Of a stretch of DNA of 64,000 nt, positions 31,181 to 64,000 are shown in pieces. Position 1 is the stretch's first letter, and the number at the start of each line of letters is the position of its first letter. Location: assembly GCF_040958095.1 (NCBI RefSeq), contig NC_091195.1, positions 26,389,881 to 26,453,880 of the forward strand. Direction: 5' to 3'. The notes under the pieces are model-generated. The model did not search any database. It saw only the letters and a list, made by a program, of their open reading frames with translations, and was not told the origin of the DNA. A program made the position numbers and the translations under genes. Source of the DNA: Procambarus clarkii. Its lineage: Eukaryota > Arthropoda > Malacostraca > Decapoda > Cambaridae.

Positions 31181-31350
31181 TTATTTGGTCCTTCGAAACC
31201 GAATTATTTGGACCTTCGGAACCGGAATATTTGATCCTATGAACCCATATTTGGTCATCTTCGAACCGGATGACGGATTATTTGATCCTTTGAACCCACA
31301 TTTGGTCATCTTAGTACCGGATGAACCAGTTAACCAGTGGATTCATTAAA
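31181..31350 (+). promoter_or_regulatory. Putative primer-binding region with repeated TTTGGTCCTTCGAA-like motif
   Basis: Directly after the 5' LTR the words ATTTGGTCCTTCGAAACCG, ATTTGGACCTTCGGAACCG, ATTTGATCCTATGAACCC and TTTGGTCATCTTCGAACCGG follow one another. Words like TTTGGTCCTTCGA are what I recall next to LTRs of Pao elements. The complementary tRNA is not identified. The repetition is unusual for a primer site. Confidence 0.4.
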
Positions 31351-37257: not shown

Positions 37258-37490
37258 AAGTGTTCTAGCCTCCTGTTCTTGACCAGTCACCAGACACTAA
37301 GGCACAACCGTCTCTGATCCTTCCCGCCACTCAAGTGACGTCCAGACCAATCACAGACCTCCACTGCTGGCTACGTCACAGCCCAGCCTCTCCTCATTGG
37401 CTGCTGATGACATCATCCTTGCCCTTCCCGCCATTTTTTGTAAATATTCCAGACAGCATTCATGAACACAGTGTCCTTAACTCTTAAAGT
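37258..37490. promoter_or_regulatory. Promoter-like cluster: CCAAT, E2F-like and CRE-like words
   Basis: Within about 200 bp: TTCCCGCC at about 37321 and 37425 (E2F-like), CCAATCAC and inverted ATTGGCTG (CCAAT boxes), and TGACGTCC, TACGTCAC and TGACATCA (CRE-like). No start codon or transcript can be tied to it, so this is only a motif cluster in unique sequence between two arrays. Confidence 0.3.
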
Positions 37491-37866
37491 GCGCATCACG
37501 TCATATGACGTGTTGGACGTTGTTCCAGTCAACTGCGCATCACGTCATATGACGTGTTGGACGTTGTTCCAGTCAGCTGCGTATCACGTCATATGACGTG
37601 TTGGACTTTGTTCCAGTCAACTGCGCATCACGTCATATGACGTGTTGGACGTTGTTCCAGTCAACTGCGCATCACGTCATATGACGTGTTGGACGTTGTT
37701 CCAGTCAACTGCGCATCACGTCATATGACGTGTTGGACGTTGTTCCGGTCAACTGCGCATCACGTCATATGACGTGTTGGACGTTGTTCCAGTCAACTGC
37801 GCATCACGTCATATGACGTGTTGGACGTTGTTCCAGTCAACTGCGCATCACGTCATATGACGTGGT
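37491..37866. repeat. 44-bp tandem repeat with a perfect 16-bp palindrome (nine units)
   Basis: Units start at 37491, 37535, 37579 and so on to 37843, exactly 44 bp apart. Each contains CACGTCATATGACGTG, a perfect palindrome, then TTGGACGTTGTTCCAGTC. The copies are nearly identical; the palindrome is intact in all nine. Confidence 0.95.
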
Positions 37867-38035
37867 GGAGTACTACGCAAGATTTAAAGTATTGACCCTG
37901 GCACAACTACCTAACTTCCCGCCCAGAGGAGGTCACAGTTAAATAGTTCTCACGTATGTGAGGTAAAACAAGTAAGGAACTGGTTGGGCTCAGAGTCGGG
38001 GTCACCTCTGGCAATGTTGACCTTCGCGGGATTGA

Positions 38036-43030: not shown

Positions 43031-45062
43031 GTGTATGATGGCTCTCCCCTCACCTGTGATAGCTCCCATGGCTCCCCCCTCACCTGTGATAGCTCCCATG
43101 GCTCCCCCTCACCTGTGATGGCTCCCATGGCTCCCCCCTCACCTGTGATAGCTCCCATGGCTCCCCCCTCACCTGTGATAGCTCCCATGGCTCCCCCCTC
43201 ACCTGTGATAGCTCCCATGGCTCCCCCTCACCTGTGATGGCTCCCATGGCTCCCCCCTCACCTGTGATAGCTCCCATGGCTCTCCCCTCACCTGTGATAG
43301 CTCCCATGGCTCCCCCCTCACCTGTGATAGCTCCCATGGCTCCCCCCTCACCTGTGATGGCTCCCATGGCTCCCCCCTCACCTGTGATAGCTCCCATGGC
43401 TCCCTCCCCTCACCTGTGATGGCTCCCATGGCTCCCCCCTCACCTGTGATAGCTCCCATGGCTCCCCCCTCACCTGTGATGGCTCCCATGGCTCCCCCCT
43501 CACCTGTGATAGCTCCCATGGCTCCCTCCCCTCACCTGTGATGGCTCCCATGGCTCCCCCCTCACCTGTGATAGCTCCCATGGCTCCCTCCCCTCACCTG
43601 TGATGGCTCCCATGGCTCCCCCCTCACCTGTGATAGCTCCCATGGCTCCCCCCTCACCTGTGATGGCTTCCATGGCTCCCCCCCCTCATCTGTGATGGCT
43701 CCCATGGCTCCCCCCTCACCTGTGATGGCTCCCATGGCTCTCCCCTCACCTGTGATGGTTCACCTGGCTCCCTCCTCTCACCTGTAATGGCTCACCTGGC
43801 TCCCTCCCCTCACCTGTGATGGCTCCCATGGCTCCCCCTCACCTGTGATGGCTCACCTGGCTCCCCCCTCACCTGTGATGGCTCACCTGGCTCCCTCCCC
43901 TCACCTGTGATGGCTCCCATGGCTCCCTCCCCTCACCTGTGACAGCTCCCATGGCTCCCCTCCTCACCTGTGATGGCTCTCATGGCTCCCCCCTCACCTG
44001 TGATAGCTCCCATGGCTCCCCTCCTCACCTGTGATGGCTCCCATGGCTCCCCCCTCACCTGTGATGGCTCCCATGGCTCCCCCCTCACCTGTGATGGCTC
44101 CCATGGCTCCCCCCTCACCTGTGATGGCTCCCATGGCTCCCCCCTCACCTGTGATGGCTCCCATGGCTCCCCCCTCACCTGTGATGGCTCCCATGGCTCC
44201 CCCCTCACCTGTGATGGCTCCCATGGCTCCCCCCTCACCTGTGATAGCTCCCATGGCTCCCCCCTCACCTGTGATGGCTCCCATGGCTCCCCCCCTCACC
44301 TGTGATGGCTCCCATGGCTCCCCCCTCACCTGTGATGGCTCCCATGGCTCCCCCCTCACCTGTGATGGCTCCCATGGCTCCCCCCTCACCTGTGATGGCT
44401 CCCATGGCTCCCCCTCACCTGTGATGGCTCCCATGGCTCCCCCCTCACCTGTGATAGCTCCCATGGCTCCCCCCTCACCTGTGATGGCTCCCATGGCTCC
44501 CCCCCTCACCTGTGATGGCTCCCATGGCTCCCTCCCCTCACCTGTGATGGCTCCCATGGCTCCCCCCTCACCTGTGATGGCTCCCATGGCTCCCCCCTCA
44601 CCTCTGATGGCTCACCTGGCTCCCCCCTCACCTGTGATGGCTCCCATGGCTCCCCCCTCATCTGTGATGGCTCCCATGGCTCCCCCCTCACCTGTGATGG
44701 CTCCCATGGCTCCCCCCTCACCTGTGATGGCTCCCCCTCACCTGTGATGGCTCCCATGGCTCCCCCCTCACATGTGATGGCTCCCATGGCTCCCCCCTCA
44801 CCTGTGATGGCTCCCATGGCTCCCCCCCTCACCTGTGATAGCTCCCATGGCTCCCCCCTCACCTGTGATGGCTCCCCTGGCTCCCCCCCCTCACCTGTGA
44901 TGGCTCCCATGGCTCCCCCCTCACCTGTGATGGCTCCCATGGCTCCCCCCTCACCTGTGATGGCTCCCATGGCTCCCCCCTCACCTGTGAAGGCTCCCCC
45001 CTCACCTGTGATGGCTCCCCCCTCACCTGTGATGGCTCCCCGTCTCACCTGTGATGGCTGAC
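43031..45062. repeat. 30-bp minisatellite (about 67 units)
   Basis: Unit CTCCCATGGCTCCCCCCTCA plus CCTGTGATGG. Variants replace CCCATGG by ACCTGG or change G to A in GATGG. It ends about 20 bp before the acceptor of the heat-shock-protein exon. Open frames are repeat-driven. Confidence 0.95.
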
Positions 45063-45106
45063 CTACCCTCTCCCTCACCACAGAGCCACCAGCAGCAGGA
45101 GCAGTG

Positions 45107-45231
45107 ATGGTGTGCGAGGCGCCACGCACCAGGACGCTACTGGTCAGTCGCCGCGGCGGGTTCCTGGAGGACCCGTTCTTCAGGGACGCCTGGGGGGACT
45201 ACAATAACGCTGTCCGGAGGATCGTCGATAG
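45107..45231 (+). CDS. Small heat-shock protein-like gene, exon with start codon (residues 1-42)
   Basis: A pyrimidine-rich acceptor, CCTCTCCCTCACCACAG, ends at 45083, so the exon is about 45084-45231 and the first 23 bases may be 5' UTR. The ATG at 45107 has G at -3 and +4. The 41 codons contain GGFLEDPFFRDAWGDYNNAV. D-P-F-F-R-x-x-W-x-D-Y/F is the N-terminal arm motif of arthropod small heat-shock proteins, as I recall from decapod Hsp21-type proteins. The donor is AG then GTACAC (phase 2). The first base of exon 2 completes codon 42 as Arg. Coding sequence is GC-rich against its surroundings. Such proteins are ATP-independent holdases. If the frame upstream (PPAAGAV) is coding, the start is earlier. 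The family call is moderate because the alpha-crystallin domain is not in view. Confidence 0.68.
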
Positions 45232-45261
45232 GTACACCTCGGCCTACACTTCTCCTGTCTG

Positions 45262-45716
45262 GTACACTGTACTAATTGCACTTCTTATGTCTGGTACACT
45301 GCACTAACCACTTCTCGTGTCTGGAACACTGCATTAACTGCACTTCTCGTGTCTGGAACACTGCATTAACTGCACTTCTCGTGTCTGGAACACTGCACTA
45401 ACTGCACTTCTCGTGTCTGGAACACTGCATTAACTGCACTTCTCGTGTCTGGAACACTGCACTAACCACTTCTCGTGTCTAGAACACTGCATTAAGTGCA
45501 CTTCTCGTGTCTGGAACACTGCACTAACCACTTCTCGTGTCTAGAACACTGCATTAACTGCACTTCTCGTGTCTGGAACACTGCACTAACCACTTCTCGT
45601 GTCTAGAACACTGCATTAAGTGCACTTCTCGTGTCTGGAACACTGCACTAACCACTTCTCGTGTCTAGAACACTGCATTAACTGCACTTCTTGTGTCTGG
45701 TACTCTGCACTGTCTC
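45262..45716. repeat. 30/32-bp minisatellite in intron 1, starting at the exon donor
   Basis: Units GTGTCTGGAACACTGCATTA plus ACTGCACTTCTC, with a shorter form ending CTAACCACTTCTC; long and short forms alternate in the second half. The first units read TCTGGTACACTG, like the donor (GGTACACC) 30 bp upstream. Confidence 0.9.
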
Positions 45717-45834
45717 CAGCACTTCTCCTAGCCTAATATTGAGAACTAATCACCTCTGCATGACTGGCTTGTAACTGTCATCAGCATGTTTCATGACACA
45801 TTTAAAGCTGTCTGAATCAGTTATTTAGTGTGTG

Positions 45835-46013
45835 GGTAGGGGGAGGGAACTATCACGAGAAAGCGTCAAGCCATTACAACTTTATAGCATTGGGAAGGGG
45901 TCAGAATAAGGGTTTGGGATGCGACGGGGGGAAAGGAATGGTGCACAACCACTTGGACGGTCGGGGATTGAACGCGAACCTGCATGAAACATGACCGTTG
46001 CTCTACCCTAAGC
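45835..46013 (-). mobile_element. tRNA-derived SINE, second body type, copy 2
   Basis: Minus strand from the head: GTAGAGCAACGGTCATGTTT, GTTCAATCCCCGACCGTCC, AAGTGGTTGTGCACCATTCC, then CTTATTCTGACCCCTTCCCA and GTTCCCTCCCCC. The head and first half match 15893-16123; this copy retains a longer body. Confidence 0.75.
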
Positions 46014-46614
46014 CCAAGTGGGTAGTGGGTGACCTGTGTTGGCAGTACTAGTTTTCACTCAACTTTATTCATAAATCGGTGTACTTGTATTATCTTTGAA
46101 CACCAGAGTTTAAAATGAACACTGAAACATGGTGTTCCAGTGTTCAAAAATAATAATATGGTTAGTTCATTTTAATTAAGAATTCGCCTCAGTCTGTAGC
46201 AGGTTGTGTGTACTCCGTCACTGGCAGTGTGCATTTGTTTACATCGGCCAAACTGGTAAACTGCTGTGGTCACGTTTACAACAACATCCTTACTCGATTC
46301 ATTCAACACTCTAATGCATTGTATTTACATTCCAATGCATGTGATCATTCTATCGACTGGAGAGAAGCAAAATACATTGCTCAGTGTAAGGGTGAGTGAA
46401 ATTTGCTTGAGTCAGCCTTGATCAACAAATGCACCAACACCTTTACTCTTACTCTTAACCTTGGCATGCACAAATTACATTCGAATATAAGCTTCAATAT
46501 TTCACCTCAGTACATGATAAAATAAGCACCCCTGGTAGGTGGGGGTGTTCAAGTTTTTTTTCTTAATTTATCTTTCATGTAGCCCGTTTTCTGTAGAGCT
46601 TCCTTACCGTCGAA
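46014..46614. other. No gene recognised (intron)
   Basis: Unique-looking AT-rich sequence within intron 1 of the heat-shock-protein-like gene. Contains a CCATGTTTCAGTGTTC/GAACACTG-like local inverted repeat near 46105-46147. Confidence 0.5.
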
Positions 46615-46793
46615 ACATCAAACCTCTCTCAATGTTTACGGACGACGCCAAAATTATGAGAAGGGTTAAGAAAGAAGAGGACTGTTTGAGGCTTCAAAAA
46701 GACTTGGACAACTGAAGGAATGGTCCAACAAAGAGTTGTAAGAGTTTAACCCGAGCAAATGTAATGTAATGAAGATAGGTGTAGGGAGCAGGA
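46615..46793 (+). pseudogene. CR1/Jockey-like LINE reverse transcriptase remnant, copy D left part
   Basis: Reads FTDDAKIMRRV, the catalytic FADD region with Ala changed to Thr, then a broken stretch matching KDLDN and FNPSKC wording. Interrupted at 46794 by a MITE; continues at 47051. Confidence 0.75.
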
Positions 46794-47050
46794 GCCAGAT
46801 TCACGAAAGCACTTACGCAAGCACTTACGAATGTGTACATCTTTCCTCAATCTTTGACGGGTTTGTTTACATTTATTAAACAGTTTACAAGTATGAAAAC
46901 TTCCCAATCAACTGTTGTTATTGTTATAAACAGCCTCCTGGTGCTTCGGAGCTCATTAAATTTTTAATAATTGGAAACAAAGCCACCAAAGATTGAGAAA
47001 AGATGTACAGGTTTGTAAGTGCTTGCGTAAGTGCTTTCGTGAATCTGGCC
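46794..47050. mobile_element. MITE with terminal inverted repeats, copy 2, inserted in LINE copy D
   Basis: GCCAGATTCACGAAAGCACT at the left and AGTGCTTTCGTGAATCTGGC at the right are exact inverted repeats. CAGGAG flanks both sides. Interior matches 16124-16376 read in the other direction. Confidence 0.85.
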
Positions 47051-47775
47051 CCAGGAGGCCAGATACGAGGTATCATTTGGGAGATGAAATACTTCAAAAT
47101 CAGAGAGAGAAAAAAGCCTGGGGGTTGATATCACGCCAGACCTGTCCCCTGAAGCCCATATCAAGAGGATAACATCAGTGGCATGTGGCAAGCTGGCCAA
47201 CATACGAACGGTCTTTAGAAACTTGTGTAAGGAATTATTTAGAACCCTTGTATACCACATATGTCAGACCTATCCTGGAGTATGCAACTGCAGCATGGAG
47301 TCCATATCTCGTCAAGCTTAAGACTAAATTGGAGAAGGTTCAGAGGTTTACCACCAGACTAGTACCCGAGCTGAGGAGCATAAACTATGAGGAGAGAATA
47401 AGGAAATTAAACCTCACGTCGCTGGAAGACATGAGATTTAGAATGGATCGACATGATCACAACATGCAAGATTCTCTAAGGAATTGATAGACAAAGACAG
47501 TTTATTTAACACAAGGGGCACACGCACCAGGGGACAGGTGGAAATTGAGTGCCCAAATGAGCCACAGAGATATTAGAAAGAACTTTTTCAGTGACAGTGT
47601 AGTTGACAAGTGGAATGCATTAGGCAGTGATGTGGTGGAGGCTGACTCCATACACAGTTTCAAGTGTAGATATGATAGAGCCCAATAGGCTCAGGAACCT
47701 GTACACCAGTTGATTGACAGTTGAGAGGCGGGACCAAAGAGCCAGAGCTCAACCCCCGCAAGCACAAATAGGTAG
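47051..47775 (+). pseudogene. CR1/Jockey-like LINE C-terminal region and 3' UTR, copy D right part
   Basis: The frame at about 47185-47487 gives TTYVRPILEYATAAWSPYLV, KLKTKLEKVQRFTTRLVPEL and LNLTSLEDM, the thumb and C-terminal region. It then shifts frame and continues to DSIHSFKCRYDRAQ and a stop at about 47687. The 3' end CAAGCACAAATAGGTAGGTA lies at 47759-47777, right against the 31/33-bp array. Several stops and shifts, so dead. Confidence 0.85.
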
Positions 47776-47777
47776 GT

Positions 47778-50700
47778 ACCAGTTCACCCACAGTAACTGG
47801 TGGTGTTCACAGGGTTCACACACAGTAACTGGTGGTGTTGACAGGTTCACACACAGTAACTGGTGGTGTTCACAGGTTCACCCACAGTAACTGGTGGTGT
47901 TCACAGGTTCACACACAGTAACTGGTGGTGTTCACAGGTTCACACACAGTAACTGGGGGTGTTCACAGGTTCACACACAGTAACTGGTGGTGTTCACAGG
48001 TTCACACACAGTAACTGGTGGTGTTCACAGGTTCACACACAGTAACTGGGGGTGTTCACAGGTTCACACACAGTAACTGGTGGTGTTCACACACACAGTA
48101 ACTGGTGGTGTTCACACACAGTAACTGGTGGTGTTCACACACACAGTAACTGGTGGTGTTCACACACAGTAACTGGTGGTGTTCACACACACAGTAACTG
48201 GTGGTGTTCACAGGTTCACACACAGTAACTGGTGGTGTTCACAGGTTCACACACAGTAACTGGTGGTGTTCACAGGTTCACACACAGTAACTGGTGGTGT
48301 TCACACACACAGTAACTGGTGGCGTTCACAGGTTCACACACACAGTAACTGGTGGTGTTCACAGGGTTCACACACACAGTAACTGGTGGTGTTCACAGGT
48401 TCACACACAGTAACTGGTGGTGTTCACAGGTTCACACACACAGTAACTGGTGGTGTTCACACACACAGTAACTGGTGGTGTTCACAGGTTCACACACAGT
48501 AACTGGTGGTGTTCACAGGTTCACACACACAGTAACTGGTGGTGTTCACAGGGTTCACACACACAGTAACTGGTGGTGTTCACAGGTTCACACACAGTAA
48601 CTGGTGGTGTTCACAGGTTCACACACACAGTAACTGGTGGTATTCACAGGTTCACACACACAGTAACTGGTGGTGTTCACACACACAGTAACTGGGGGTG
48701 TTCACAGGTTCACACACACAGTAACTGGTGGTGTTCACAGGCTCAACCACATAGTAACTGGTGGTGTTCACAGGTTCACCCACAGTAACTGGTGGTGTTC
48801 ACAGGTTCACACACAGTAACTGGTGGTGTTCACAGGTTCACACACAGTAACTGGTGGTGTTCACAGGTTCACCCACAGTAACTGGTGGTGTTCACCCACA
48901 CAGTAACTAGTGGTGTTCACACACACAGTAACTGGTGGTGTTCACAGGTTCACCCACAGTAACTGGTGGTGTTCACAGGTTCACACACAGTAACTGCTGG
49001 TGTTCACAGGTTCACCCACAGTAACTGGTGGTGTTCACAGGTTCACCCACAGTAACTGGTGGTGTTCACAGGTTCACCCACAGTAACTGGTGGTGTTCAC
49101 AGGTTCACCCACAGTAACTGGTGGTGTTCACAGGTTCACCCACAGTAACTGGTGGTGTTCACAGGTTCACACACAGTAACTGGTGGTGTTCACAGGTTCA
49201 CCCACAGTAACTGGTGGTGTTCACCCACACAGTAACTGGTGGTGTTCACACACACAGTAACTGGTGGTGTTCACAGGTTCACCCACAGTAACTGGTGGTG
49301 TTCACAGGTTCACACACAGTAACTGCTGGTGTTCACAGGTTCACCCACAGTAACTGGTGGTGTTCACAGGTTCACCCACAGTAACTGGTGGTGTTCACAG
49401 GTTCAACCACACAGTAACTGGTGGTGTTCACAGGTTCACACACAGTAACTGCTGGTGTTCACAGGTTCACCCACAGTAACTGGTGGTGTTCACAGGTTCA
49501 CACACAGTAACTGCTGGTGTTCACAGGTTCACCCACACAGTAACTGGTGGTGTTCACAGGTTCACCCACAGTAACTGGTGGTGTTCACACACAGTAACTG
49601 GTGGTGTTCACAGGTTCACACACAGTAACTGGTGGTGTTCACAGGTTCAACCACAGTAACTGGTGGTGTTCACAGGTTCACACACAGTAACTGCTGGTGT
49701 TCACAGGTTCAACCACATAGTAACTGGTGGTGTTCACCCACACAGTAACTGGTGGTGTTCACAGGTTCACCCACAGTAACTGGTGGTGTTCACACACACA
49801 GTAACTGGTGGTGTTCACACACACAGTAACTGGTTGTGATCACAGGTTCACACACAGTAACTGGTGGTGTTCACAGGTTCAACCACATAGTAACTGGTGG
49901 TGTTCACAGGTTCACCCACAGTAACTGGTGGTGTTCACAGGTTCACCCACAGTAACTGGTGGTGTTCACCCACACAGTAACTGGTGGTGTTCACAGGTTC
50001 ACCCACAGTAACTGGTGGTGTTCACACACACAGTAACTGGTGGTGTTCACAGGTTCACACACAGTAACTGGTGGTGTTCACAGGTTCAACCACATAGTAA
50101 CTGGTGGTGTTCACAGGTTCACCCACAGTAACTGGTGGTGTTCACCCACACAGTAACTGGTGGTGTTCACAGGTTCACCCACAGTAACTGGTGGTGTTCA
50201 CACACACAGTAACTGGTGGTGTTCACAGGTTCACACACAGTAACTGGTGGTGTTCACAGGTTCACCCACACAGTAACTGGTGGTGTTCACAGGTTCACAC
50301 ACAGTAACTGGTGGTGTTCACAGGTTCACCCACACAGTAACTGGTGGTGTTCACAGGTTCACCCACAGTAACTGGTGGTGTTCACAGGTTCACCCACACA
50401 GTAACTGGTGGTGTTCACAGGTTCACCCACACAGTAACTGGTGGTGTTCACAGGTTCACCCACAGTAACTGGTGGTGTTCACAGGTTCACCCACACAGTA
50501 ACTGGTGGTGTTCACAGGTTCACACACAGTAACTGGTGGTGTTCACAGGTTCACACACATAGTAACTGGTGGTGTTCACAGGTTCACACACAGTAACTGG
50601 TGGTGTTCACAGGTTCACACACAGTAACTGGTGGTGTTCACAGGTTCACACACACAGTAACTGGTGGTGTTCACAGGTTCACACACACAGTAACTGGTGG

Positions 50701-53238
50701 TGTTCACAGGTTCACACACACAGTAACTGGTGGTGTTCACAGGTTCACCCACAGTAACTGGTGGTGTTCACAGGTTCACACACAGTAACTGGTGGTGTTC
50801 ACAGGTTCAACCACACTAGTAACTGGTGGTGTTCACAGGGTTCACACACAGTAACTGGTGGTGTTCACAGGTTCACACACAGTAACTGGTGGTGTTCACA
50901 GGTTCACACACAGTAACTGGTGGTGTTCACAGGTTCACACACACAGTAACTGGTGGTGTTCACAGGGTTCACACACACAGTAACTGGTGGTGTTCACAGG
51001 TTCACACACACAGTAACTGGTGGTGTTCACAGGTTCACACACACAGTAACTGGTGGTGTTCACAGGTTCACACACAGTAACTGGTGGTGTTCACAGGTTC
51101 ACACACACAGTAACTGGTGGTGTTCACAGGTTCACACACAGTAACTGGTGGTGTTCACAGGTTCACCTACACAGTAACTGGTGGTGTTCACAGGTTCACC
51201 CACGCAGTAACTGGTGGTGTTCACAGGTTCACCTACACAGTAACTGGTGGTGTTCACAGGTTCACCCACGCAGTAACTGGTGGTGTTCACAGGTTCACCC
51301 ACGCAGTAACTGGTGGTGTTCACAGGTTCACCCACGCAGTAACTGGTGGTGTTCACAGGTTCACACACAGTAACTGGTGGTGTTCACACACACAGTAACT
51401 GGTGGTGTTCACAGGTTCACACACAGTAACTGGTGGTGTTCACAGGTTCACACACACAGTAACTGGTGGTGTTCACAGGTTCACACACAGTAACTGGTGG
51501 TGTTCACAGGTTCACACACACAGTAACTGGTGGTGTTCACAGGTTCACCCACAGTAACTGGTGGTGTTCACAGGTTCACACACAGTAACTGGTGGTGTTC
51601 ACAGGTTCACACACACAGTAACTGGTGGTGTTCACAGGTTCACACACACAGTAACTGGTGGTGTTCACAGGGTTCACACACACAGTAACTGGTGGTGTTC
51701 ACAGGTTCACACACAGTAACTGGTGGTGTTCACAGGTTCACACACACAGTAACTGGTGGTGTTCACAGGTTCACCCACGTAGTAACTGGTGGTGTTCACA
51801 GGTTCACACACAGTAACTGGTGGTGTTCACACACACAGTAACTGGTGGTGTTCACAGGTTCACACACAGTAACTGGTGGTGTTCACAGGTTCACACACAC
51901 AGTAACTGGTGGTGTTCACAGGGTTCACACACACAGTAACTGGTGGTGTTCACAGGTTCACACACAGTAACTGGTGGTGTTCACAGGTTCACCCCCACAG
52001 TAACTGGTGGTGTTCACAGGTTCACCCACAGTAACTGGTGGTGTTCACAGGTTCACACACACAGTAACTGGTGGTGATCACAGGTTCACCCCCACAGTAA
52101 CTGGTGGTGTTCACAGGTTCACACACAGTAACTGGTGGTGTTCACAGGTTCACCCTCACAGTAACTGGTGGTGTTCACAGGTTCACACACACAGTAACTG
52201 GTGGTGTTCACAGGTCCACAAACACAGTAACTGGTGGTGTTCACAGGTTCACCCACAGTAACTGGTGGTGTTCACAGGTTCACCCACAGCAACTGGTGGT
52301 GTTCACAGGTTCAACCACATAGTAACTGGTGGTGTTCACAGGGTTCACACGCAGTAACTGGTGGTGTTCACAGGGTTCACACACAGTAACTGGTGGTGTT
52401 CACAGGTTCACACACAGTAACTGGTGGTGTTCACAGGTTCACACACAGTAACTGGTGGTGTTCACAGGTTCACACACAGTAACTGGTGGTGTTCACAGGT
52501 TCACCCACAGTAACTGGTGGTGTTCACACACACAGTAACTGGTGGTGTTCACAGGGTTCACACACAGTAACTGGTGGTGTTCACAGGGTTCACACACAGT
52601 AACTGGTGGTGTTCACAGGTTCACACACAGTAACTGGTGGTGTTCACAGGTTCACACACACAGTAACTGGTGGTGTTCACAGGTTCACACACAGTAACTG
52701 GTGGTGTTCACAGGTTCACACACAGTAACTGGTGGTGTTCACAGGTTCACCCACAGTAACTGGTGGTGTTCACAGGTTCACACACACAGTAACTGGTGGT
52801 GTTCACAGGTTCTCACACAGTAACTGGTGGTGTTCACAGGTTCACCCACAGTAACTGGTGGTGTTCACAGGTTCACACACAGTAACTGGTGGTGTTCACA
52901 GGTTCACCCACAGTAACTGGTGGTGTTCACAGGTTCACACACAGTAACTGGTGGTGTTCACAGGTTCACACACAGTAACTGGTGGTGTTCACAGGTTCAC
53001 ACACAGCAACTGGTGGTGTTCACAGGTTCACACACACAGTAACTGGTGGTGTTCACAGGTTCACACACAGCAACTGGTGGTGTTCACAGGTTCACCCACA
53101 GTAACTGGTGGTGTTCACAGGTTCACACACAGTAACTGGTGGTGTTCACAGGTTCACCCACAGTAACTGGTGGTGTTCACAGGTTCACACACAGTAACTG
53201 GTGGTGTTCACACACACAGTAACTGGTGGTGTTCACAG
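47778..53238. repeat. 31/33-bp minisatellite filling the 3' end of intron 1 (about 170 units)
   Basis: Unit CAGTAACTGGTGGTGTTCAC plus AGGTTCACACA, with a 2-bp CA variation and GGGTT, CCCACA, CCCACG and CAACCACATAG variants. The last unit ends GGTGTTCACAG at 53238, which is the splice acceptor of the exon at 53239. A minority of units carry CACAGGTTCAACCA, matching the first nine exon bases as well. Confidence 0.95.
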
Positions 53239-53380
53239 GTTCAACCATGGAGGGATGTTCGCCCCAAGAGACCGTCTGCGGGACTCCCACTACCACACCA
53301 TGTACAGGACTCTGCGCTCTGCTCGCATCAACTACGCCGCGCAGGCAGCAGCCTTCAAGGACCAGGGCGATGTTTACAAG
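53239..53380 (+). CDS. Small heat-shock protein-like gene, exon 2 (residues 42-89)
   Basis: The acceptor CACAG at 53234-53238 comes from the last minisatellite unit. The first G completes Arg42, and the next 47 codons read FNHGGMFAPRDRLRD, HYHTMYRTLRSARINYAAQA and FKDQGDVYK. The donor is AAG then GTGAGT (phase 0), a strong consensus. The junction gives VRRIVDRFNHGG with no stop. FKDQGDVYK ends like the linker and first strand of an alpha-crystallin domain (compare F-K-V in that family), so the conserved domain should start the next exon, beyond 64000. Composition is GC-rich and non-repetitive between two arrays. That both exons belong to one gene is inferred from phase and theme. Confidence 0.68.
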
Positions 53381-53397
53381 GTGAGTCGCGCCCCCTG

Positions 53398-56300
53398 GTG
53401 TTCTCATACACCATCCTGCCGGGTGTATGGTGTTCTGGCGTCGTGTATGGTGTTCTGGAGTCGTGTATGGTGTTCTGGCGTCGTGTATGGTGTTCTAGCG
53501 TGGTGTATGGTGTTCTGGCGTGGTGTATGGTGTGGTGTATGGTGTTCTGGCGTGGTGTATGGTGTTCTGGCGTGGTGTATGATGTTCTGGCGTGGTGTAT
53601 GGTGTTCTAGCGTGGTGTATGGTGTTCTGGCGTGGTGTATGGTGTTCCTGCCGGGTGTATGGTGTTCTGGCGTGGTGTATGGTGTTCCTGCCGGGTGTAT
53701 GGTGTTCTGGCGTGGAGTATGGTGCTCTGGCGTGGTGTATGGTGTTCTGGCGTGGTGTATGGTGTTCTGGAGTCGTGTATGGTGTTCTGGAGTCGTGTAT
53801 GGTGTTCTGGCGTCGTGTATGGTGTGGTGTATGGTGTTCTGGCGTCGTGTATGGTGTTCTGGCGTGGTGTATGGTGTTCTGGCGTCGTGTATGGTGTGGT
53901 GTATGGTGTTCTGGCGTCGTGTATGGTGTTCTGGCGTGGTGTATGGTGTTCTGGCGTGGTGTATGGTGTTCTGGCGTGGTGTATGGTGTTCTGGCGTGGT
54001 GTATGGTGTTCTGGCGTGGTGTATGGTGCTCTGGCGTGGTGTATGGTGTTCCTGCCGGGTGTATGGTGTTCTGGCGTGGAGTATGGTGCTCTGGCGTGGT
54101 GTATGGTGTTCTGGCGTCGTGTATGGTGTTCTGGCCTCGTGTATGGTGTTCTGGCGTCGTGTATGGTGTTCTGGCGTCGTGTATGGTGTTCTGGCGTCGT
54201 GTATGGTGTTCTGGCGTGGTGTATGGTGTTTCTACCTGGTGCAAGGGGTTTTGGTGTGGTGTATAGTGTTCTAGCGTGGTGTATGGTGTTTTAGCGTGGT
54301 GTATGGTGTTCTGGCGTGGTGTACGGTGTTCTAGCGTGGTGTATGGTGTTCTGGCGTGGTGTATGGTGTTCTGGCGTGGTGTATGGTGTTCTGGCGTGGT
54401 GTATGGTGTTCTAGCGTGGTGTATGGTGTTCTAACGTGGTGTATGGTGTTCTGGCGTGGTGTTCGGTGTTCTAGCGTGGTGTATGGTGTTCTGGCGTGGT
54501 GTATGGTGTTCTGGCGTGGTGTATGGTGTTCTAGCGTGGTGTATGGTGTTCTAGCGTGGTGTATGGTGTTCTAGCGTGGTGTATGGTGTTCTGGCGTGGT
54601 GTTTGGTGTTCTAGCGTGGTGTATGGTGTTCTAGCGTGGTGTATGGTGTTCTAGCGTGGTGTATGGTGTTCTAGCGTGGTGTATGGTGTTCTGGCGTGGT
54701 GTATGGTGTTCTAGCATGGTGTATGGTGTTCTGGCGTGGTGTACGGTGTTCTAGCGTGGTGTATGGTGTTCTGGCGTGGTGTATGGTGTTCCTGCCGGGT
54801 GTATGGTGTTCTGGCGTGGAGTATGGTGCTCTGGCGTGGTGTATGGTGTTCTGGCGTGGTGTATGGTGTTCTGGAGTCGTGTATGATGTTCTGGAGTCGT
54901 GTATGGTGTTCTGGCGTCGTGTATGGTGTGGTGTATGGTGTTCTGGCGTCGTGTATGGTGTTCTGGCGTGGTGTATGGTGTTCTGGCGTCGTGTATGGTG
55001 TTCTGGCGTCGTGTATGGTGTGGTGTATGGTGTTCTGGCGTCGTGTATGGTGTTCTGGCGTCGTGTATGGTGTTCTGGCGTGGTGTATGGTGTTCTGGCG
55101 TGGTGTATGGTGTTCTGGCGTGGTGTATGGTGTTCTGGCGTGGTGTATGGTGCTCTGGCGTGGTGTATGGTGTTCCTGCCGGGTGTATGGTGTTCTGGCG
55201 TGGAGTATGGTGCTCTGGCGTGGTGTATGGTGTTCTGGCGTCGTGTATGGTGTTCTGGCGTCGTGTATGGTGTTCTGGCGTCGTGTATGGTGTTCTGGCG
55301 TCGTGTATGGTGTTCTGGCGTCGTGTATGGTGTTCTGGCGTGGTGTATGGTGTTTCTACCTGGTGCAAGGGGTTTTGGTGTGGTGTATAGTGTTCTAGCG
55401 TGGTGTATGGTGTTTTAGCGTGGTGTATGGTGTTCTGGCGTGGTGTACGGTGTTCTAGCGTGGTGTATGGTGTTCTGACGTGGTGTATGGTGTTCTGGCG
55501 TGGTGTATGGTGTTCTGGCGTGGTGTATGGTGTTCTGGCGTGGTGTACGGTGTTCTAGCGTGGTGTATGGTGTTCCGGCGTGGTGTATGGTGTTCTGGCG
55601 TGGTGTATGGTGTTCTAGCGTGGTGTATGGTGTTCTAGCGTGGTGTATGGTGTTCTAGCGTGGTGTATGGTGTTCTAGCGTGGTGTATGGTGTTCTAGCG
55701 TGGTGTATGGTGTTCTAGCGTGGTGTATGGTGTTCTGGCGTGGTGTTTGGTGTTCTAGCGTGGTGTATGGTGTTCTAGCGTGGTGTATGGTGTTCTAGCG
55801 TGGTGTATGGTGTTCTAGCGTGGTGTATGGTGTTCTGGCGTGGTGTATGGTGTTCTAGCATGGTGTATGGTGTTCTGGCGTGGTGTACGGTGTTCTAGCG
55901 TGGTGTATGGTGTTCTGGCGTGGTGTTTGGTGTTCTAGCGTGGTGTATGGTGTTCTAGCGTGGTGTATGGTGTTCTAGCATGGTGTATAGTGTTCTAGCG
56001 TGGTGTATGGTGTTCTAGCGTGTTGTATGGTGTTCTAGCGTAGTGTATGGTGTTCTGGCGTGGTGTATGGTGTTCTAGCATGGTGTATGGTGTTCTAGCG
56101 TGGTGTATGGTGTTCTAGCGTGGTGTATGGTGTTATAGCGTGGTGTATGGTGTTTTAGCGTGGTGTATGGTGTTTTAGCGTGGTGTATGGTGTTCTAGCG
56201 TGGTGTATGGTGTTCTGGCGTGGTGTACGGTGTTCTAGCGTGGTGTATGGTGTTCTAGCGTGGTGTATGGTGTTCTAGCGTGGTGTATGGTGTTCCTACC

Positions 56301-59300
56301 TGGTAAATGGTGTTCTAGCGTGGTGTATGGTGTTCCTACCTGGTAAATGGTGTTCTAGCGTGGTGTATGGTGTTCCTACCTGGTAAATGGTGTTTTACCG
56401 TGGTGTATGGTGTTCTAGCGTGGTGTATGGTGTTCCTGCCTGGTTTATGGTGTTCTAGCGTAGTGTATGGTGTTCTATCGTAGTGTTTGGTGTTCTAGCG
56501 TGGTGTATGGTGTTCTAGCGTGGTGTATGGTGTTCTAGCGTGGTGTATGGTGTTCTAGCGTGGTGTATTGTGTTCTGGCGTTGTGTAGGGTGCTCTAGCG
56601 TGGTGTATGGTGTTCTAGCGTGGTGTATGGTGTTCTTACGTGGTGTATGGTGTTCTGGCGTGGTGTATGGTGTTTTAGCGTGGTGTATGGAGTTCTGGCG
56701 TGGTGTATGGTGTTCTAGCGTGGTGTATGGTGTTCCTACCTGGTAAATGGTGTTCTAGCGTGGTGTATGGTGTTCCTACCTGGTAAATGGTGTTTTAGCG
56801 TGGTGTATGGTGTTCTAGCGTGGTGTATGGTGTTCCTGCCTGGTTTATGGTGTTCTAGCGTAGTGTATGGTGTTCTATCGTAGTGTTTGGTGTTCTAGCG
56901 TGGTGTATGGTGTTCTAGCGTGGTGTATGGTGTTCTAGCGTGGTGTATGGTGTTCCTACCTGGTAAATGGTGTTCTAGCGTGGTGTATGGTGTTCTAGCG
57001 TGGTGTATGGTGTTCTAGCGTGGTGTATGGTGTTCCTACCTGGTAAATGGTGTTCTAGCGTGGTGTATGGTGTTCCTACCTGGTAAATGGTGTTTTAGCG
57101 TGGTGTATGGTGTTCCTGCCTGGTTTATGGTGTTCTAGCGTAGTGTATGGTGTTCTATCGTAGTGTATGGTGTTCTATCGTAGTGTTTGGTGTTCTAGCG
57201 TGGTGTATGGTGTTCTAGCGTGGTGTATGGTGTTCTAGCGTGGTGTATTGTGTTCTGGCGTTGTGTAGGGTGCTCTAGCGTGGTGTATGGTGTTCTAGCG
57301 TGGTGTATGGTGTTCTTACGTTGTGTATGGTGTTCTGGCGTGGTGTATAGTGTTCTGGCGTGGTGTATGGTGTTCTGGCGTGGTGTATGGTGTTTTAGCG
57401 TGGTGTATGGAGTTCTGGCGTGGTGTATGGTGTTCTAGCGTGGTGTATGGTGTTCTATAGCGTGGTGTATGGTTTTCTGGCGTGGTGTATGGTGTACTGA
57501 CGTGGTGTATGGTGTTCGTACGTGGTGTATGGTGTTCTGGCGTGGTGTATAGTGATCTGGCGTGGTGTATGGTGTTCTGGCGTGGTGTATAGTGTTCTGG
57601 CGTGGTTTATGGTGTTCTGATGTGGTGTATGGTGTTCTGGCGCGGTGTATAGTGTTCTGGCGTGGTTTATGGTGTTCTGATGTGGTGTATGGTGTTCTAG
57701 CGTGGTGTATGGTGTTATGGCGTTGTGTATGGTGTTCTGGCGTGGTGTATGGTGTTCTTACGTGGTGTATGGTGTTCTGGCGTGGTGTATAGTGTTCTGG
57801 CGTGGTGTATGGTGTTCTGGCGTGGTGTATAGTGTTCTGGCGTGGTGTATGGTGTTCTGGCGTGGAGTATGGTCCTCTGGCGTGGTGTATGGTGTTCTTG
57901 CGTCGTGTATGGTGTTCTGGCGTGGTGTATGGTGTTCTGGCGTGGTGTATGGTCCTCTGGCGTAGTGTATGGTGTTCTTGCGTCGTGTATGGTGTTCTGG
58001 CGTGGTGTATGGTGTTCTGGCGTGGTGTATGGTGTTCTGGCGTGGTGTATGGTGTTCTGGCGTGGTGTATGGTGCTCTGGCGTGGTGTATGGTGTTCCTG
58101 CCGGGTGTATGGTGTTCTAGCGTGGAGTATGGTGCTCTGGCGTGGTGTATTGTGTTCTGGCGTCGTGTATGGTGTTCTGGCGTCGTGTATGGTGTTCTGG
58201 CGTCGTGTATGGTGTTCTGGCGTCGTGTATGGTGTTCTGGCGTGGTGTATGGTGTTCTGGCGTCGTGTATGGGGTTTTGGTGTGGTGTATGGTGTTCTAG
58301 CGTGGTGTATGGTGTTTTAGCGTGGTGTATGGTGTTCTGGCGTGGTGTACGGTGTTCTAGCGTGGTGTATGGTGTTCTGGCGTGGTGTATGGTGTTCTGG
58401 CGTGGTGTATGGTGTTCTGGCGTGGTGTATGGTGTTCTAGCGTGGTGTATGGTGTTCTAACGTGGTGTATGGTGTTCTGGCGTGGTGTACGGTGTTCTGG
58501 CGTGGTGTATGGTGTTCTGGCGTGGTGTATGGTGTTCTAGCGTGGTGTATGGTGTTCTAGCGTGGTGTATGGTGTTCTGGCGTGGTGTTTATAGTGTTCT
58601 AGCGTGGTGTATGGTGTTCTGGCGTGGTGTATGGTGTTCTGGCGTGGTGTACGGTGTTCTAGCGTGGTGTATGGTGTTTTAGCGTGGTGTATGGTGTTCT
58701 AGCGTGGTGTATGGTGTTCTGGCGTGGTGTATGGTGTTCTAGCATGGTGTATGGTGTTCTGGCGTGGTGTACGGTGTTCTAGCGTGGTGTATGGTGTTCT
58801 GGCGTGGTGTACGGTGTTCTAGCGTGGTGTATGGCGTTCTGGCGTGGTGTACGGTGTTCTAGCGTGGTGTATGGCGTTCTGGCGTGGTGTATGGTGTTTT
58901 AGCGTGGTGTATGGAGTTCTGGCGTGGTGTATGGTGTTCTAGCGTGGTGTATGGTGTTCTAGCGTGGTGTATGGTTTTCTGGCGTGGTGTATGGTGTACT
59001 GACGTGGTGTATGGTGTTCGTACGTGGTGTATGGTGTTCTGGCGTAGTGTATAGTGATCTGGCGTAGTGTATGGTGTTCTGGCGTGGTGTATAGTGTTCT
59101 GGCGTGGTTTATGGTGTTCTGATGTGGTGTATGGTGTTCTGGCGTGGTGTATAGTGTTCTGGCGTGGTTTATGGTGTTCTGATGTGGTGTATGGTGTTCT
59201 AGCGTGGTGTATGGTGTTATGGCGTTGTGTATGGTGTTCTGGCGTGGTGTATGGTGTTCTTACGTGGTGTATGGTGTTCTGGCGTGGTGTATAGTGTTCT

Positions 59301-62300
59301 GGCGTGGTGTATGGTGTTCTGGCGTGGTGTATAGTGTTCTGGCGTGGTGTATGGTGTTCTGGCGTGGAGTATGGTGCTCTGGCGTGGTGTATGGTGTTCT
59401 TGCGTGGTGTATGGTGTTCTGGCGTGGTGTATGGTGTTCTGGCGTGGTGTATGGTGTTCTGGCGTCGTGTATGGTGTTCTGGCGTGGTGTATGGTGTTCT
59501 GGCGTGGTGTATGGTGCTCTGGCGTGGTGTATGGTGTTCCTGCCGGGTGTATGGTGTTCTGGCGTGGAGTATGGTGCTCTGGCGTGGTGTATTGTGTTCT
59601 GGCGTCGTGTATGGTGTTCTGGCGTCGTGTATGGTGTTCTGGCGTCGTGTATGGTGTTCTGGCGTCGTGTATGGTGTTCTGGCGTCGTGTATGGTGTTCT
59701 GGCGTCGTGTATGGTGTTCTGGCGTCGTGTATGGTGTTCTGGCGTCGTGTATGGTGTTCTGGCGTGGTGTATGGTGTTCTGGCGTGGTGTATGGTGTTCT
59801 GGCGTGGTGTATGGTGTTCCTACCTGGTGCAAGGGGTTTTGGTGTGGTGTATGGTGTTCTAGCGTGGTGTATGGTGTTTTAGCGTGGTGTATGGTGTTCT
59901 GGCGTGGTGTACGGTGTTCTAGCGTGGTGTATGGTGTTCTGGCGTGGTGTATGGTGTTCTGGCGTGGTGTATGGTGTTCTAGCGTGGTGTATGGTGTTCT
60001 AACGTGGTGTATGGTGTTCTGGCGTGGTGTACGGTGTTCTGGCGTGGTGTATGGTGTTCTGGCGTGGTGTATGGTGTTCTAGCGTGGTGTATGGTGTTCT
60101 AGCGTGGTGTATGGTGTTCTGGCGTGGTGTTTGGTGTTCTAGCGTGGTGTATGGTGTTCTAGCGTGGTGTATGGTGTTCTAGCGTGGTGTATGGTGTTCT
60201 GGCGTGGTGTTTATAGTGTTCTAGCGTGGTGTATGGTGTTTTAGCGTGGTGTATGGTGTTCTAGCATGGTGTATGGTGTTCTGGCGTGGTGTACGGTGTT
60301 CTAGCGTGGTGTATGGTGTTCTGGCGTGGTGTTTGGTGTTCTAGCGTGGTGTATGGTGTTCTAGCGTGGTGTATGGTGTTCTAGTATGGTGTATGGTGTT
60401 CTAGCGTGGTGTATGATGTTCTAGCGTGGTGTATGGTGTTCTAGCGTGGTGTATGGTGTTCTGGCGTGGTGTATGGTGTTCTGGCATGGTGTATGGTGTT
60501 CTAGCGTGGTGTATGGTGTTCTAGCGTGGTGTATGGTGTTCTAGCGTGGTGTATGGTGTTCTAGCGTGGTGTATGGTGTTTTAGAGTGGTGTATGGTGTT
60601 CTAGCGTGGTGTATGGTGTTCTGGCGTGGTGTACGGTGTTCTAGTGTGGTGTATGGTGTTCTAGCGTGGTGTATGGTGTTCTAGCGTGGTATATGGTGTT
60701 TCTACCTGGTACATGGTGTTCTAGCGTGGTGTATGGTGTTTCTACCTGGTTTATGGTGTTCTAGCGTGGTGTATGGTGTTCTAGCGTGGTGTATGGTGTT
60801 TCTACCTGGTAAATGGTGTTCTAGCGTGGTGTATGGTGTTCTGGCGTGGTGTACGGTGTTCTAGCGTGGTGTATGGTGTTCTAGCGTGGTGTATGGTGTT
60901 CTAGCGTGGTGTATGGTGTTCTTACGTGGTGTCTGGTGTTCTGGCGTGGTGTATAGTGTTCTGGCGTGGTGTATGGTGTTCTGGCGTGGTGTACGGTGTT
61001 CTAGTGTGGTGTATGGTGTTCTAGCGTGGTGTATGGTGTTCTAGCGTGGTGTATAGTGTTCTTACGTGGTGTCTGGTGTTCTGGCGTGGTGTATAGTGTT
61101 CTGGCGTGGTGTACGGTGTTCTAGTGTGGTGTATGGTGTTCTAGCGTGGTGTATGGTGTTCTAGCGTGGTGTATGGTGTTCTTACGTGGTGTCTGGTGTT
61201 CTGGCGTGGTGTATAGTGTTCTGGCGTGGTGTATGGTGTTCTGGCGTGGTGTACGGTGTTCTATTGTGGTGTATGGTGTTCTAGCGTGGTGTATGGTGTT
61301 CTAGCGTGGTGTATGGTGTTCTTACGTGGTGTCTGGTGTTCTGGCGTGGTGTATAGTGTTCTAGCGTGGTGTATGGTGTTCTAGCGTGGTGTATGGTGTT
61401 CTTGCGTCGTGTATGGTGTTCTTACGTGGTGTATGGTGTTCTGGCGTGGTGTATAGTGTTCTGGCGTGGTGTTTGGTGTTCTGGCGTGGTGTATAGTGTT
61501 CTGGCGTGGTGTATGGTGTTCTGGCGTGGTGTATAGTGTTCTGGCGTGGTGTATGGTGTTCTGGCGTGGTGTATGGCGTGGTGTATGGTGTTCTAGCGTG
61601 GTGTATTGTGTTCTAGCGTGGTGTATGGTGTTCTTGCGTCGTGTATGGTGTTCTTACGTGGTGTATGGTGTTCTGGCGTGGTGTATAGTGTTCTGGCGTG
61701 GTGTATGGTGTTCTGGCGTGGTGTATAGTGTTCTGGCGTGGTGTATGGTGTTCTGGCGTGGTGTATGGCGTGGTGTATGGTGTTCTAGCGTGGTGTATGG
61801 TGTTCTGGCTTCGTGTATGGTGTTCTGGCGTCGTGTATGGTGTTCTGGCGTCGTGTATGGTGTTCTGGCGTCGTGTATGGTGTTCCTGCCTGTGTATTGT
61901 GTTCTGGCGTGGTGTATGGTGCACTAGCATAGTGTATGGTATTCTGGCGTGGTGTATGGTGCACTAGCATAGTGTATGGTATTCTGGCGTGGTGTATGGT
62001 GCACTAGCATAGTGTATGGTATTCTGGCGTGGTGTATGGTGCACTAGCATAGTGTATGGTATTCTGGCGTGGTGGATGGTGTTCTAGCGTGGTGTATGGT
62101 GTTCTTACGTGGTGTATGGTGTTCTGGCGTGGTGTATGGTGCACTAGCATAGTGTATGGTATTCTGGCGTGGTGTATGGTGCACTAGCATAGTGTATGGT
62201 ATTCTGGCGTGGTGTATGGTGTTCTAGCGTGGTGTATGGTGTTCTAGCGTGGTGGATGGTGTTCTGGCGTGGTGTATGGTGTTCTGGCGTGGTGTATGGT

Positions 62301-63483
62301 GTTCTTACGTGGTGTATGGTCTTCTGGCGTGGTGTATGGTGTTCTGGCGTGGTGTATGGTGTTCTTACGTGGTGTATGGTGTACTGACGTGGTGTATGGT
62401 GTTCTGGCGTGGTGTATGGTGTTCTGGCGTGGTGTATGGTGTTCTAGCGTGGTGTATGGTGTTCTAGCGTGGTGTATGGTGTTCTTACGTGGTGTATGGT
62501 GTTCTGGCGTGGTGTATGGTGTTCTGGCGTGGTGTATGGTGTTCTAGCGTGGTGTATGGTGTTCTAGCGTGGTGTATGGTGTTCTAGCGTGGTGTATGGT
62601 GTTCTATCGTGGTGTATGGTGTTCTTACGTGGTGTATGGTGTTCTGGCGTGGTGTATGGTGTTCTGGCGTGGTGTATGGTGTTCTGGCGTGGTGTATGGT
62701 GTTCTAGCGTGGTGTATGGTGTTCTAGCGTGGTGTATGGTGTTCTAGCGTGGTGTATGGTGTTCTTACGTGGTGTATGGTGTTCTGGCGTGGTGTATGGT
62801 GTTCTGGCGTGGTGTATGGTGTTCTAGCGTGGTGTATGGTGTTCTAGCGTGGTGTATGGTGTTCTGGCGTGGTGTATGGTGTTCTGGCGTGGTGTATGGT
62901 GTTCTGGCGTGGTGTATGGTGTTCTAGCGTGGTGTATGGTGTTCTGGCGTGGTGTATGATGTTCCTGCCTGGTGCATGGGGTCTGGTGGGGTGTATGGTA
63001 TTCTAGCGTGGTGTATGGTGTTCTAGCGTGGTGTATGGTGTTCTTACGTGGTGTATGGTGTTCTGGCGTGGTGTATGGTGTTCTGGCGTGGTGTATGGTG
63101 TTCTAGCGTGGTGTATGGTGTTCTAGCGTGGTGTATGGTGTTCTGGCGTGGTGTATGGTGTTCTGGCGTGGTGTATGGTGTTCTGGCGTGGTGTATGGTA
63201 TTCTAGCGTGGTGTATGGTGTTCTGGCGTGGTGTATGGTGTTCTGGCGTGGTGTATGGTGTTCTGGCGTGGTGTATGGTGTTCTGGCGTGGTGTATGGTG
63301 TTCTAGCGTGGTGTATGGTGTTCTAGCGTGGTGTATGGTGTTCTAGCGTGGTGTATGGTGTTCTAGCGTGGTGTATGGTGTTCTAGCGTGGTGTATGGTG
63401 TTCTAGCGTGGTGTATGGTGTTCTAGCGTGGTGTATCGTGTTCTAGCGTGGTGTATCGTGTTCTAGCGTGGTGTATGGTGTTC
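53398..63483. repeat. 20-bp minisatellite in intron 2 (about 500 units, 10 kb)
   Basis: Unit TGGTGTTCTGGCGTGGTGTA with frequent variants (TAGCG, GTCGT, TACGT, CCTGCCGGG, CCTACCTGGTAAA). It starts 17 bp after the exon-2 donor, where CTGGTGTTCTCATACACCAT already has the unit words. Block duplications are clear: variant strings at about 54041-54340 recur at 55142-55470, and those at 57480-58440 recur at about 58980-60000. The many Val-Trp-Cys frames are artefacts. Confidence 0.95.
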
Positions 63484-63485
63484 TA

Positions 63486-63744
63486 GGGCCAAATTTACGA
63501 AGCAGTTACGCAAGCACTTACGAACGTGTACATCTTTTCTCAATCTCTGACGGCTTTGGTTAAGTTTATTAAACAGTTTACATGTATGAAAACTTGCCAA
63601 TCAACTGTTGTTATTGTTATAAACAGCCTCCTGGTGCTTCGGAGCTCATTGACTGTATAATAATTGTAAACAAAGCCGCCAAAGATTGAGAATAGATGTA
63701 CAGGTTCGTAAGTACTTGCGTAACTGCTTCGTGAATCTGTCCCC
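63486..63744. mobile_element. MITE with terminal inverted repeats, copy 3
   Basis: GGGCCAAATTTACGAAGCAG at the left, TAACTGCTTCGTGAATCTGT and CCCC at the right, with interior words shared with 46794-47050 (CAACTGTTGTTATTGTTATA, AACAGCCTCCTGGTGCTTCG). It marks the end of the 20-bp array. Confidence 0.85.
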
Positions 63745-64000
63745 TGGTCGAGTCATCTTGTTAGGTCCCTCAGTCATCATATCATCATCTTAAGACTCCA
63801 CAATGTCATCATGTTACAGTAATCAATCCCTATATCAACATATTAGCTTAGATCTCTATGCCTTTCTTTAAATTTATATATATTTTTTATGCCTATTTCT
63901 CCGTGGAGTGGCTTCTAGTTTTCAGTAATATTTTAGGTGTCTTTGTATATATAATTCTCAGTTCATTGAGCATAATTTTACAGTTTAAGTGATTTTAATA
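63745..64000. other. No gene recognised
   Basis: AT-rich intron-like sequence to the window edge. No exon with splice sites seen. Confidence 0.5.

Follow-up and report, generated by a model that had tools for sequence, protein, structure and literature searches.

A 31-bp minisatellite at the predicted exon-2 acceptor of a small heat-shock protein gene in Procambarus clarkii, and its probable origin from the splice junction

Using computational methods, we analysed a stretch of 64,000 nucleotides from the 4.03-Gb genome of the crayfish Procambarus clarkii (C46:26389881-26453880). This stretch is called the window below, and plain coordinates count from its first letter. It holds the first two exons of a gene that, judged by its joined exons, is a small heat-shock protein gene, and the 8-kb intron between them ends in a 31-bp minisatellite, here named array C, which is our main subject. 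The features that bear directly on it are the following.

45084..45231, forward strand: exon 1 of the small heat-shock protein gene; ATG at 45107; ends GATAG/GTACAC in phase 2, with an open frame into exon 2
45232..53238, forward strand: intron 1 (8 kb), absent from the paralogue L015
47782..53238, forward strand: array C, the 31-bp minisatellite (Tandem Repeats Finder, TRF, and unit parse); 177 cores, acceptor-like; gives exon 2 its 3′ splice site
53239..53380, forward strand: exon 2 (142 nt), GTTCAACCATGG...TACAAG/GTGAGT; open frame; second copy at C46:28724219

Exons 1 and 2 alone fell below the cut-off for every family and gave no HSP20 match. The HSP20 domain is found in exon 3 of a second copy of the gene; the window gene's own exon 3 lies outside the window. 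Exons 1 and 2 of the window, joined with exon 3 of the second copy, match PF00011 (E 4.8e-13), which fits the mention of a heat-shock gene in an earlier note made on this DNA from its letters. That note had also joined the end of exon 1 (45231) to an exon 2 beginning at 53239, and this joining does yield an open frame of 89 residues as far as TACAAG/GTGAGT. When 332 AGs, giving exon starts from 47782 to 53240, were each joined in turn to exon 1, only 53239 left the frame open and in register; 330 of the others led to a stop, and one (53220) shifted the frame but met no stop up to the exon-2 end. Since it is the only array AG that keeps the frame by translation, 53239 is predicted to be the productive site. 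The paralogue L015, 0.28 Mb away on the same contig, has the equivalents of exons 1 and 2 in a single open frame, so that intron 1 is present in one paralogue and absent from the other. Both proteins have 89 residues (33% identity over 83 residues in the search), and their alignment crosses the predicted junction with no gap nearby (..IVDR/FNHGG.. and ..VVDR/WDDAG..), which supports 53239 as the start of exon 2. Thus, the proposal that the last AG is the correct acceptor is supported both by the frame and by the full-length alignment to an intron-less paralogue.

TRF placed array C at 47782-53243, with a period of 31 and 177.2 copies, and splitting the array at its core motif gave 177 cores. 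A typical unit reads TAAC...CACAG/GTTCA and resembles an acceptor; the TAAC, whose last A lies 16 nt from the end of CACAG in common units, may be a branch point. The commonest unit is TAACTGGTGGTGTTCACAGGTTCACACACAG (52 copies), followed by the CACCCACAG variant (30 copies). The final unit ends GTGTTCACAG (CACAG) at 53238, exon 2 runs from 53239, and the likeness to the unit extends to 53243, five bases inside the exon. The central proposal of the earlier note, that a 5.5-kb minisatellite furnishes the exon-2 acceptor, is therefore borne out, as the array abuts the exon exactly and supplies its AG. Some of its details need adjustment. It overstated matters in giving nearly every unit the same word, for there are 136 copies of TTCACAGGTTCA against 177 cores, and 150 of TTCACAGG within 47782-53243. 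Set against its figure of about 170 look-alike acceptors, 123 upstream sites are identical to the real one over 23 nt, the TTCACAGG copies number 150, and AG dinucleotides in the same interval 331. It was right that seven units carry the first nine exon bases, though six of the seven coordinates were off by 1 to 4 bases; GTTCAACCA starts at 49401, 49645, 49707, 49877, 50084, 50805 and 52309 in the array, and at 53239 in exon 2.

The second copy of the gene lies 2.28 Mb downstream on the same strand and may be either a paralogue or a misplaced allele. The region around exon 2 (window 53230-53421) is 100% identical in it over 192 bp, five unique stretches common to both copies are 95.8 to 100% identical, and exon 1 differs by one base. 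Array C is 5.5 kb long in the window and 10.4 kb in the second copy, with 177 and 321 units, respectively. The two versions are collinear at both ends, where the first 14 and the last 6 unit types agree; near the 3′ end, 36 consecutive units are identical in both, and the extra units lie in the middle. Each of the other two small heat-shock protein genes on this contig had at least one match in the HSP20 search. On C79, three near-identical small heat-shock protein exons (L036, L037 and L038, at 9.77, 11.20 and 12.63 Mb) lie about 1.43 Mb apart, one of them inverted, and this trio and the two copies of the window gene, 2.28 Mb apart, together suggest misplaced alleles or segmental duplications in the assembly.

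Tandem repeats of this kind have been described before. The amphioxus reports, in the parts drawn on here, describe "mirages" in Adh3, the globins Gb6/Gb9, troponin C and PGBD5, which are minisatellite-like tandem duplications across an intron-exon boundary, on the 5′ or 3′ side of the exon, with repeated AG or GT and with length differences between haplotypes (PMC3087553, PMC3902484). Array C shares some of these traits, namely, a minisatellite at the boundary (its last unit ending at 53238), repeated splice signals, and a length that varies, in this case between the two gene copies. Our reading, to which we give a probability of about 0.7, is that array C belongs with the mirages as a splice-junction minisatellite, grown from a duplicated junction, and that its last AG is the productive one. 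A short stretch made up of the end of intron 1 (the branch-point-like TAAC...CACAG) and the first bases of exon 2 would have been duplicated in tandem, and the duplicated stretch would then have grown to 177 units here and 321 in the second gene copy. If this is true, a short ancestral form of the intron would be expected to end in TAACTGGTGGTGTTCACAG, followed directly by GTTCAACCA.

Array C itself offers some evidence for such an origin. Among the 149 TTCACAGG sites upstream of the real one, exactly 5 exon bases follow in 128 and 9 follow in 7, and the chance of the four extra bases given the first five is roughly estimated at 0.02 (6 distinct 4-mers of 256). Nine exon bases were also found at 9 places in array C of the second copy. 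Taken alone, array C supports a junction origin without proving it; longer exon copies at other junctions support that origin more strongly than array C does. The suggestion of the earlier note that the unit came from the intron-exon junction can thus be kept with caveats, as seven units and longer copies elsewhere speak for it and the five-base match of most units does not.

These longer copies came in part from the HSP20 family itself. From at least 32 matches we cut out 30 exon loci, and 6 of the 30 (from four distinct genes) have an array that touches an exon edge or lies no more than about 35 nt away from it. The exon on C79 (L036-L038) is accompanied by 7.6 copies of a 41-bp unit that repeats about 26-30 exon bases (26/30 at L036) together with GTGAGTGGG. 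At the exon-3 donor of the window gene's second copy (L023), a 53-bp unit is present in 4.4 copies, the first of which matches the exon at 51 of 51 exon nucleotides. At the homologous donor, L016 has 47 copies of a 24-bp unit with GGTGAGTG; its first repeat has only 2 exon bases by automatic count, and by eye a stretch within the array repeats the exon end. The unit of L025 is suggestively similar to its junction (4/141 control units and 4/500 shuffles were equally good), while the donor array of L015 is not clearly like its junction by the same comparison (12/139 and 46/500). The presence of a different array at this homologous exon-3 donor in each of L016, L023 and L025 suggests separate origins. 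Among these loci, the 41-bp repeat at positions 2869-3153 of L036 has an acceptor-like TTGCAG/GG and a donor-like ACT/GTGAGTG about 20 nt apart, resembling a tandem micro-exon. Another HSP20 match (L034, C1541:24942-25220) looks bacterial by eye and is perhaps from a contaminant or symbiont contig.

Boundary arrays also appear next to exons of unrelated families. Three triple donor motifs were counted across the genome and exceeded a reversed pattern used as control (51,959 vs 9,491, 37,515 vs 7,789, and 10,221 vs 2,774); these are counts of copies and not of arrays, and among them are telomere-like AGGTTAGG repeats and, at L076, a dispersed element's tail. Because other repeats inflate them, we used them only to pick places for sampling and not as proof. 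Regardless of genes, 19 arrays (L073-L091) were then chosen among the matches listed on C1 and C2, and their expected 5′ edges were fetched, with L086 and L088 falling inside an array. In 3 of the 19, a rate that covers donor-pattern arrays and none from the reversed control pattern, the exon ending at the first donor matches Pfam: L073 (animal haem peroxidase, 2.7e-8), whose unit repeats 15/15 exon bases; L077 (alkaline phosphatase, 1.9e-8), with 34/38; and L084 (PDZ, 4.9e-8), with 18/20. L073 and L077 had been spotted by eye before the Pfam scan; among the other 17 arrays, the scan took in one or more candidate frames from 12, and in the remaining five (L075, L076, L080, L082 and L088), the frame was too short, absent or judged by eye. 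L089, with 22/23 exon bases repeated, looks lectin-like by eye but matched nothing in Pfam, L087 and L080 may be exons as judged by eye only, and in the other 13 arrays, no coding evidence was seen, either in the Pfam scan of candidate frames or by eye. Thus, units that hold both intron and exon sequence, as mirages do, were found at L023, L036, L073, L077 and L084.

Beside this survey, ten places among the matches listed in C1:58102743-58128954 lie 1 to 6 kb apart and have one 35-bp donor-bearing repeat in common. As L086, which was fetched there, is array throughout, this region may be one very long array in which most units have lost the donor motif.

Three further arrays lie at junctions of the window gene.

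43038..45059, forward strand: array A, 30/21-bp units (TRF); stops 24 nt before the exon-1 acceptor; adjacent, derivation from the junction not shown
45247..45711, forward strand: array B, 32-bp units (TRF); begins 15 nt past the exon-1 donor
53422..63484, forward strand: array D, 20-bp units, 506 copies (TRF); begins 41 nt past the exon-2 donor; adjacent only

All three are found in the second gene copy with different lengths (A, 2.0 kb in the window vs 5.3 kb; B, 465 vs 617 bp; D, 10.1 vs 11.1 kb). Each of the four junctions in the window has one of 15 arrays within 45 nt, these being arrays selected by the analyst from the TRF output that together make up 56% of the window. Among 63,999 circular shifts, scores of 3 or 4 of the 4 junctions were all reached no more than 21 nt from zero, and the adjacency of the four arrays to the junctions is non-random. 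The similarity of the units to the junctions is another matter. For array A it is not significant (43/140 control units and 204/500 shuffles equally good), array B did well against control units (2/140) but less so against shuffles (43/500), so that its derivation from the exon-1 donor is only suggestive, and the figures for array D and the exon-2 donor are 19/139 and 11/500. We therefore rejected the idea that A, B, C and D are all mirages: A fails, D fails against control units, B is equivocal, and C passes, mostly by construction.

Other repeats surround these arrays. Array C starts directly 3′ of a dispersed-repeat remnant (window ~46500-47777) with a reverse-transcriptase-like frame at 47173-47487, recognized by eye, and sequence resembling this repeat also flanks arrays L075 and L076 on C1. 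An element of about 260 bp with long inverted ends is present in two related copies, one of which (46794-47052) interrupts the dispersed element and is missing from the second gene copy, while the other (63489-63745) terminates array D; the former shares 90.7% identity with the version of the latter in the second gene copy. Farther upstream, a 28-bp minisatellite occupies two blocks (20203-30079 and 35974-37256) separated by 30080-35973. This separating segment contains a 58-aa frame twice (30502 and 35299) and a short repeat twice (31112-31160 and 35909-35957), in both cases 4797 bp apart, and a 663-aa frame at 32188 lies between them, in a layout that resembles an inserted long terminal repeat-type element. 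A 44-bp repeat at 37490-37869 (8.6 copies) has a unit with the palindrome CACGTCATATGACGTG.

Several observations weigh against a junction origin of array C or against its generality. The exon match within array C is short, at 5 nt in most units and 9 nt in 7/149, and CAACCAT, the continuation of the exon, is absent from the array in both gene copies. The alignment of the unit to the junction scored 30, which 0/140 control units and 0/500 shuffles equalled, and this score arises mostly by construction because the array itself makes up 25 of the 30 bases. Arrays A and D adjoin junctions of the same gene with no unit similarity that is significant by both controls. In 24 of the 30 HSP20 exon loci, there is no array at the exon edges, although three of the 24 have one farther away, and some may have no splice junction at that edge; from 102 myosin places, 13 exons were sampled, and none has a boundary minisatellite. 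The choice of acceptor is also less exclusive if exon 2 is included, where an AG (exon start 53269) likewise leaves the frame open, ten codons shorter. As for the myosin exons, L070 has 3.7 copies of a 10-bp repeat at its donor, and a search with AMP-binding for ordinary exons returned 14 large single-frame matches unsuited to the purpose. The notion that every intron of this genome has such arrays is ruled out by 13/13 myosin exons and 24/30 HSP20 loci.

Some of these points would suit an ordinary minisatellite that arose elsewhere in the intron and reached the exon, where the end of the array was captured as a splice site, so that the first five exon bases match for that reason. The abundance of arrays in the window (56%), the adjacency of A and D without clear unit similarity, and the five-base match of most array C units all agree with this account, which we nevertheless regard as unlikely. 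It does not readily explain the seven units with nine exon bases, nor the repeats with at least 15 exon bases that accompany exons in four further genes and the exon-3 donor in the second copy. The residue count across the junction is equal in the intron-less L015, and exon 2 has thus not been visibly extended from array C. Furthermore, all four window junctions lie within 45 nt of an array, a closeness that the circular shifts reproduced for three or four junctions only near zero.

Whatever its origin, array C surrounds the acceptor with decoys. With the real site included, the window contains 124 exact copies of the 23 nt that span the acceptor from -20 to +3 (GTAACTGGTGGTGTTCACAGGTT), against a mean of 0 for 100 shuffles. 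As 123 of these copies lie upstream, the core acceptor sequence cannot single out the real site. The nearest TCACAGG-type decoys would lengthen the 142-nt exon 2 by 56, 87, 118 and 149 nt, and all of these reach stops; with 330 array AGs leading to a stop and one to a frameshift, the use of decoys would be unproductive. The array acceptor scored 5.1 against a leave-one-out mean of 7.3 (standard deviation 3.8) with a home-made matrix built from 22 distinct acceptors, picked automatically and some of them doubtful, a set too small to rely on. Masking of the decoys by folding of the array was rejected, since three folded stretches were no better than shuffles (z of -0.21, -1.39 and 0.37). The last CACAGG was not more open in local folding either: at one window size, 84 of 151 internal sites were at least as open, and at three others, 151, 151 and 150 of 151 were. 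Most likely, exon definition from the exon-2 donor (GTGAGT) would select the real acceptor, and mis-spliced products would be cleared by nonsense-mediated decay. Array C itself would most likely be without function and tolerated, as we infer from the unproductiveness of its decoys.

A regulatory role is an alternative to tolerance. Decoys might lower or tune the output of the heat-shock protein according to copy number, as with the human ABCA7 intron-18 variable number tandem repeat (VNTR), whose 25-bp unit starts with a splice donor and is present in about 12 to 427 units; according to passages of that report, an isoform retaining one unit leads to a stop, and expression is lower with length (PMC5954066). 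This precedent and the difference between 177 and 321 units in the two gene copies are in its favour, but local RNA folding gives no cause for the last site to be more open, and we consider such a role improbable. That array C is an assembly artefact seems very improbable. It is true that long arrays are hard to assemble and that, of 320 units parsed in the second copy, 88 have no counterpart type in the window, many of them showing one-base indels that may be errors of sequencing. Yet the two copies were placed separately and match unit for unit along extended stretches at both ends, and their five unique stretches are 95.8 to 100% identical.

How far the case is new depends on the comparison chosen. 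Relative to the amphioxus globin Gb6, with 3 and 6 units of 150-160 bp, array C, at an acceptor, has 31-bp units numbering 177 and 321 in the two gene copies. In amphioxus, RT-PCR suggested that splicing is normal (PMC3902484). Array C is like the ABCA7 VNTR in having a splice signal in each unit of a long array, but the latter is on the donor side and was tested with RNA and disease association; the cited passages do not claim an exon origin for its unit (PMC5954066). The 38-bp repeats of the human TERT intron-6 VNTR, whose number affects splicing, are described as lying more than 1 kb from the junctions and acting by RNA pairing (PMC3948165), whereas array C abuts the exon. In Drosophila and potato, introns are reported to have been gained by boundary duplication, in which tandem copies create extra splice signals (PMC2891723, PMC4974935). 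Intron 1 differs in that the resemblances predicted by this model are not above chance, and its birth by Rogers-type duplication of a proto-splice site was rejected (98/409 control GT and 185/439 control AG sites were as similar). A survey of crayfish satellites describes many minisatellites, with no words beginning intron, exon, splice or genic in its main text, and among the titles and openings of abstracts that were listed, we found no crustacean or genome-wide case of boundary minisatellites. The earlier note had treated the case as unique, but the kind is already known from amphioxus and recurs in this genome, and what is new is the copy number, the acceptor type, and the spread over gene families.

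It is tempting to go further and propose that splice junctions are recurrent birth places of minisatellites, with the boundaries of unrelated genes independently copied and growing, donors and acceptors alike. We put this forward tentatively, at somewhat less than even odds, the acceptor type having been shown at one junction only. If it is true, many genes would have ladders of identical decoy sites, and the fidelity of splicing would have to depend on where a site lies and on exon definition, not on the local splice-site sequence. The recurrence at several gene families opens boundary duplication to study as a mutational process outside amphioxus, and such duplication may provide raw material for new exons and introns. 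As for array C, it is a real instance of a kind already known, and it far exceeds the amphioxus globin Gb6 case in copy number; although it probably has no function, it is highly valuable for testing how splice sites are chosen. Its 124 acceptors identical over 23 nt, of which one is predicted to be productive, amount to a natural experiment on 3′ splice-site choice beyond the core signal, in which last-in-line position, exon definition and the decay of errors are the candidate selectors, and the two gene copies, with 177 and 321 units, provide two doses of decoys.

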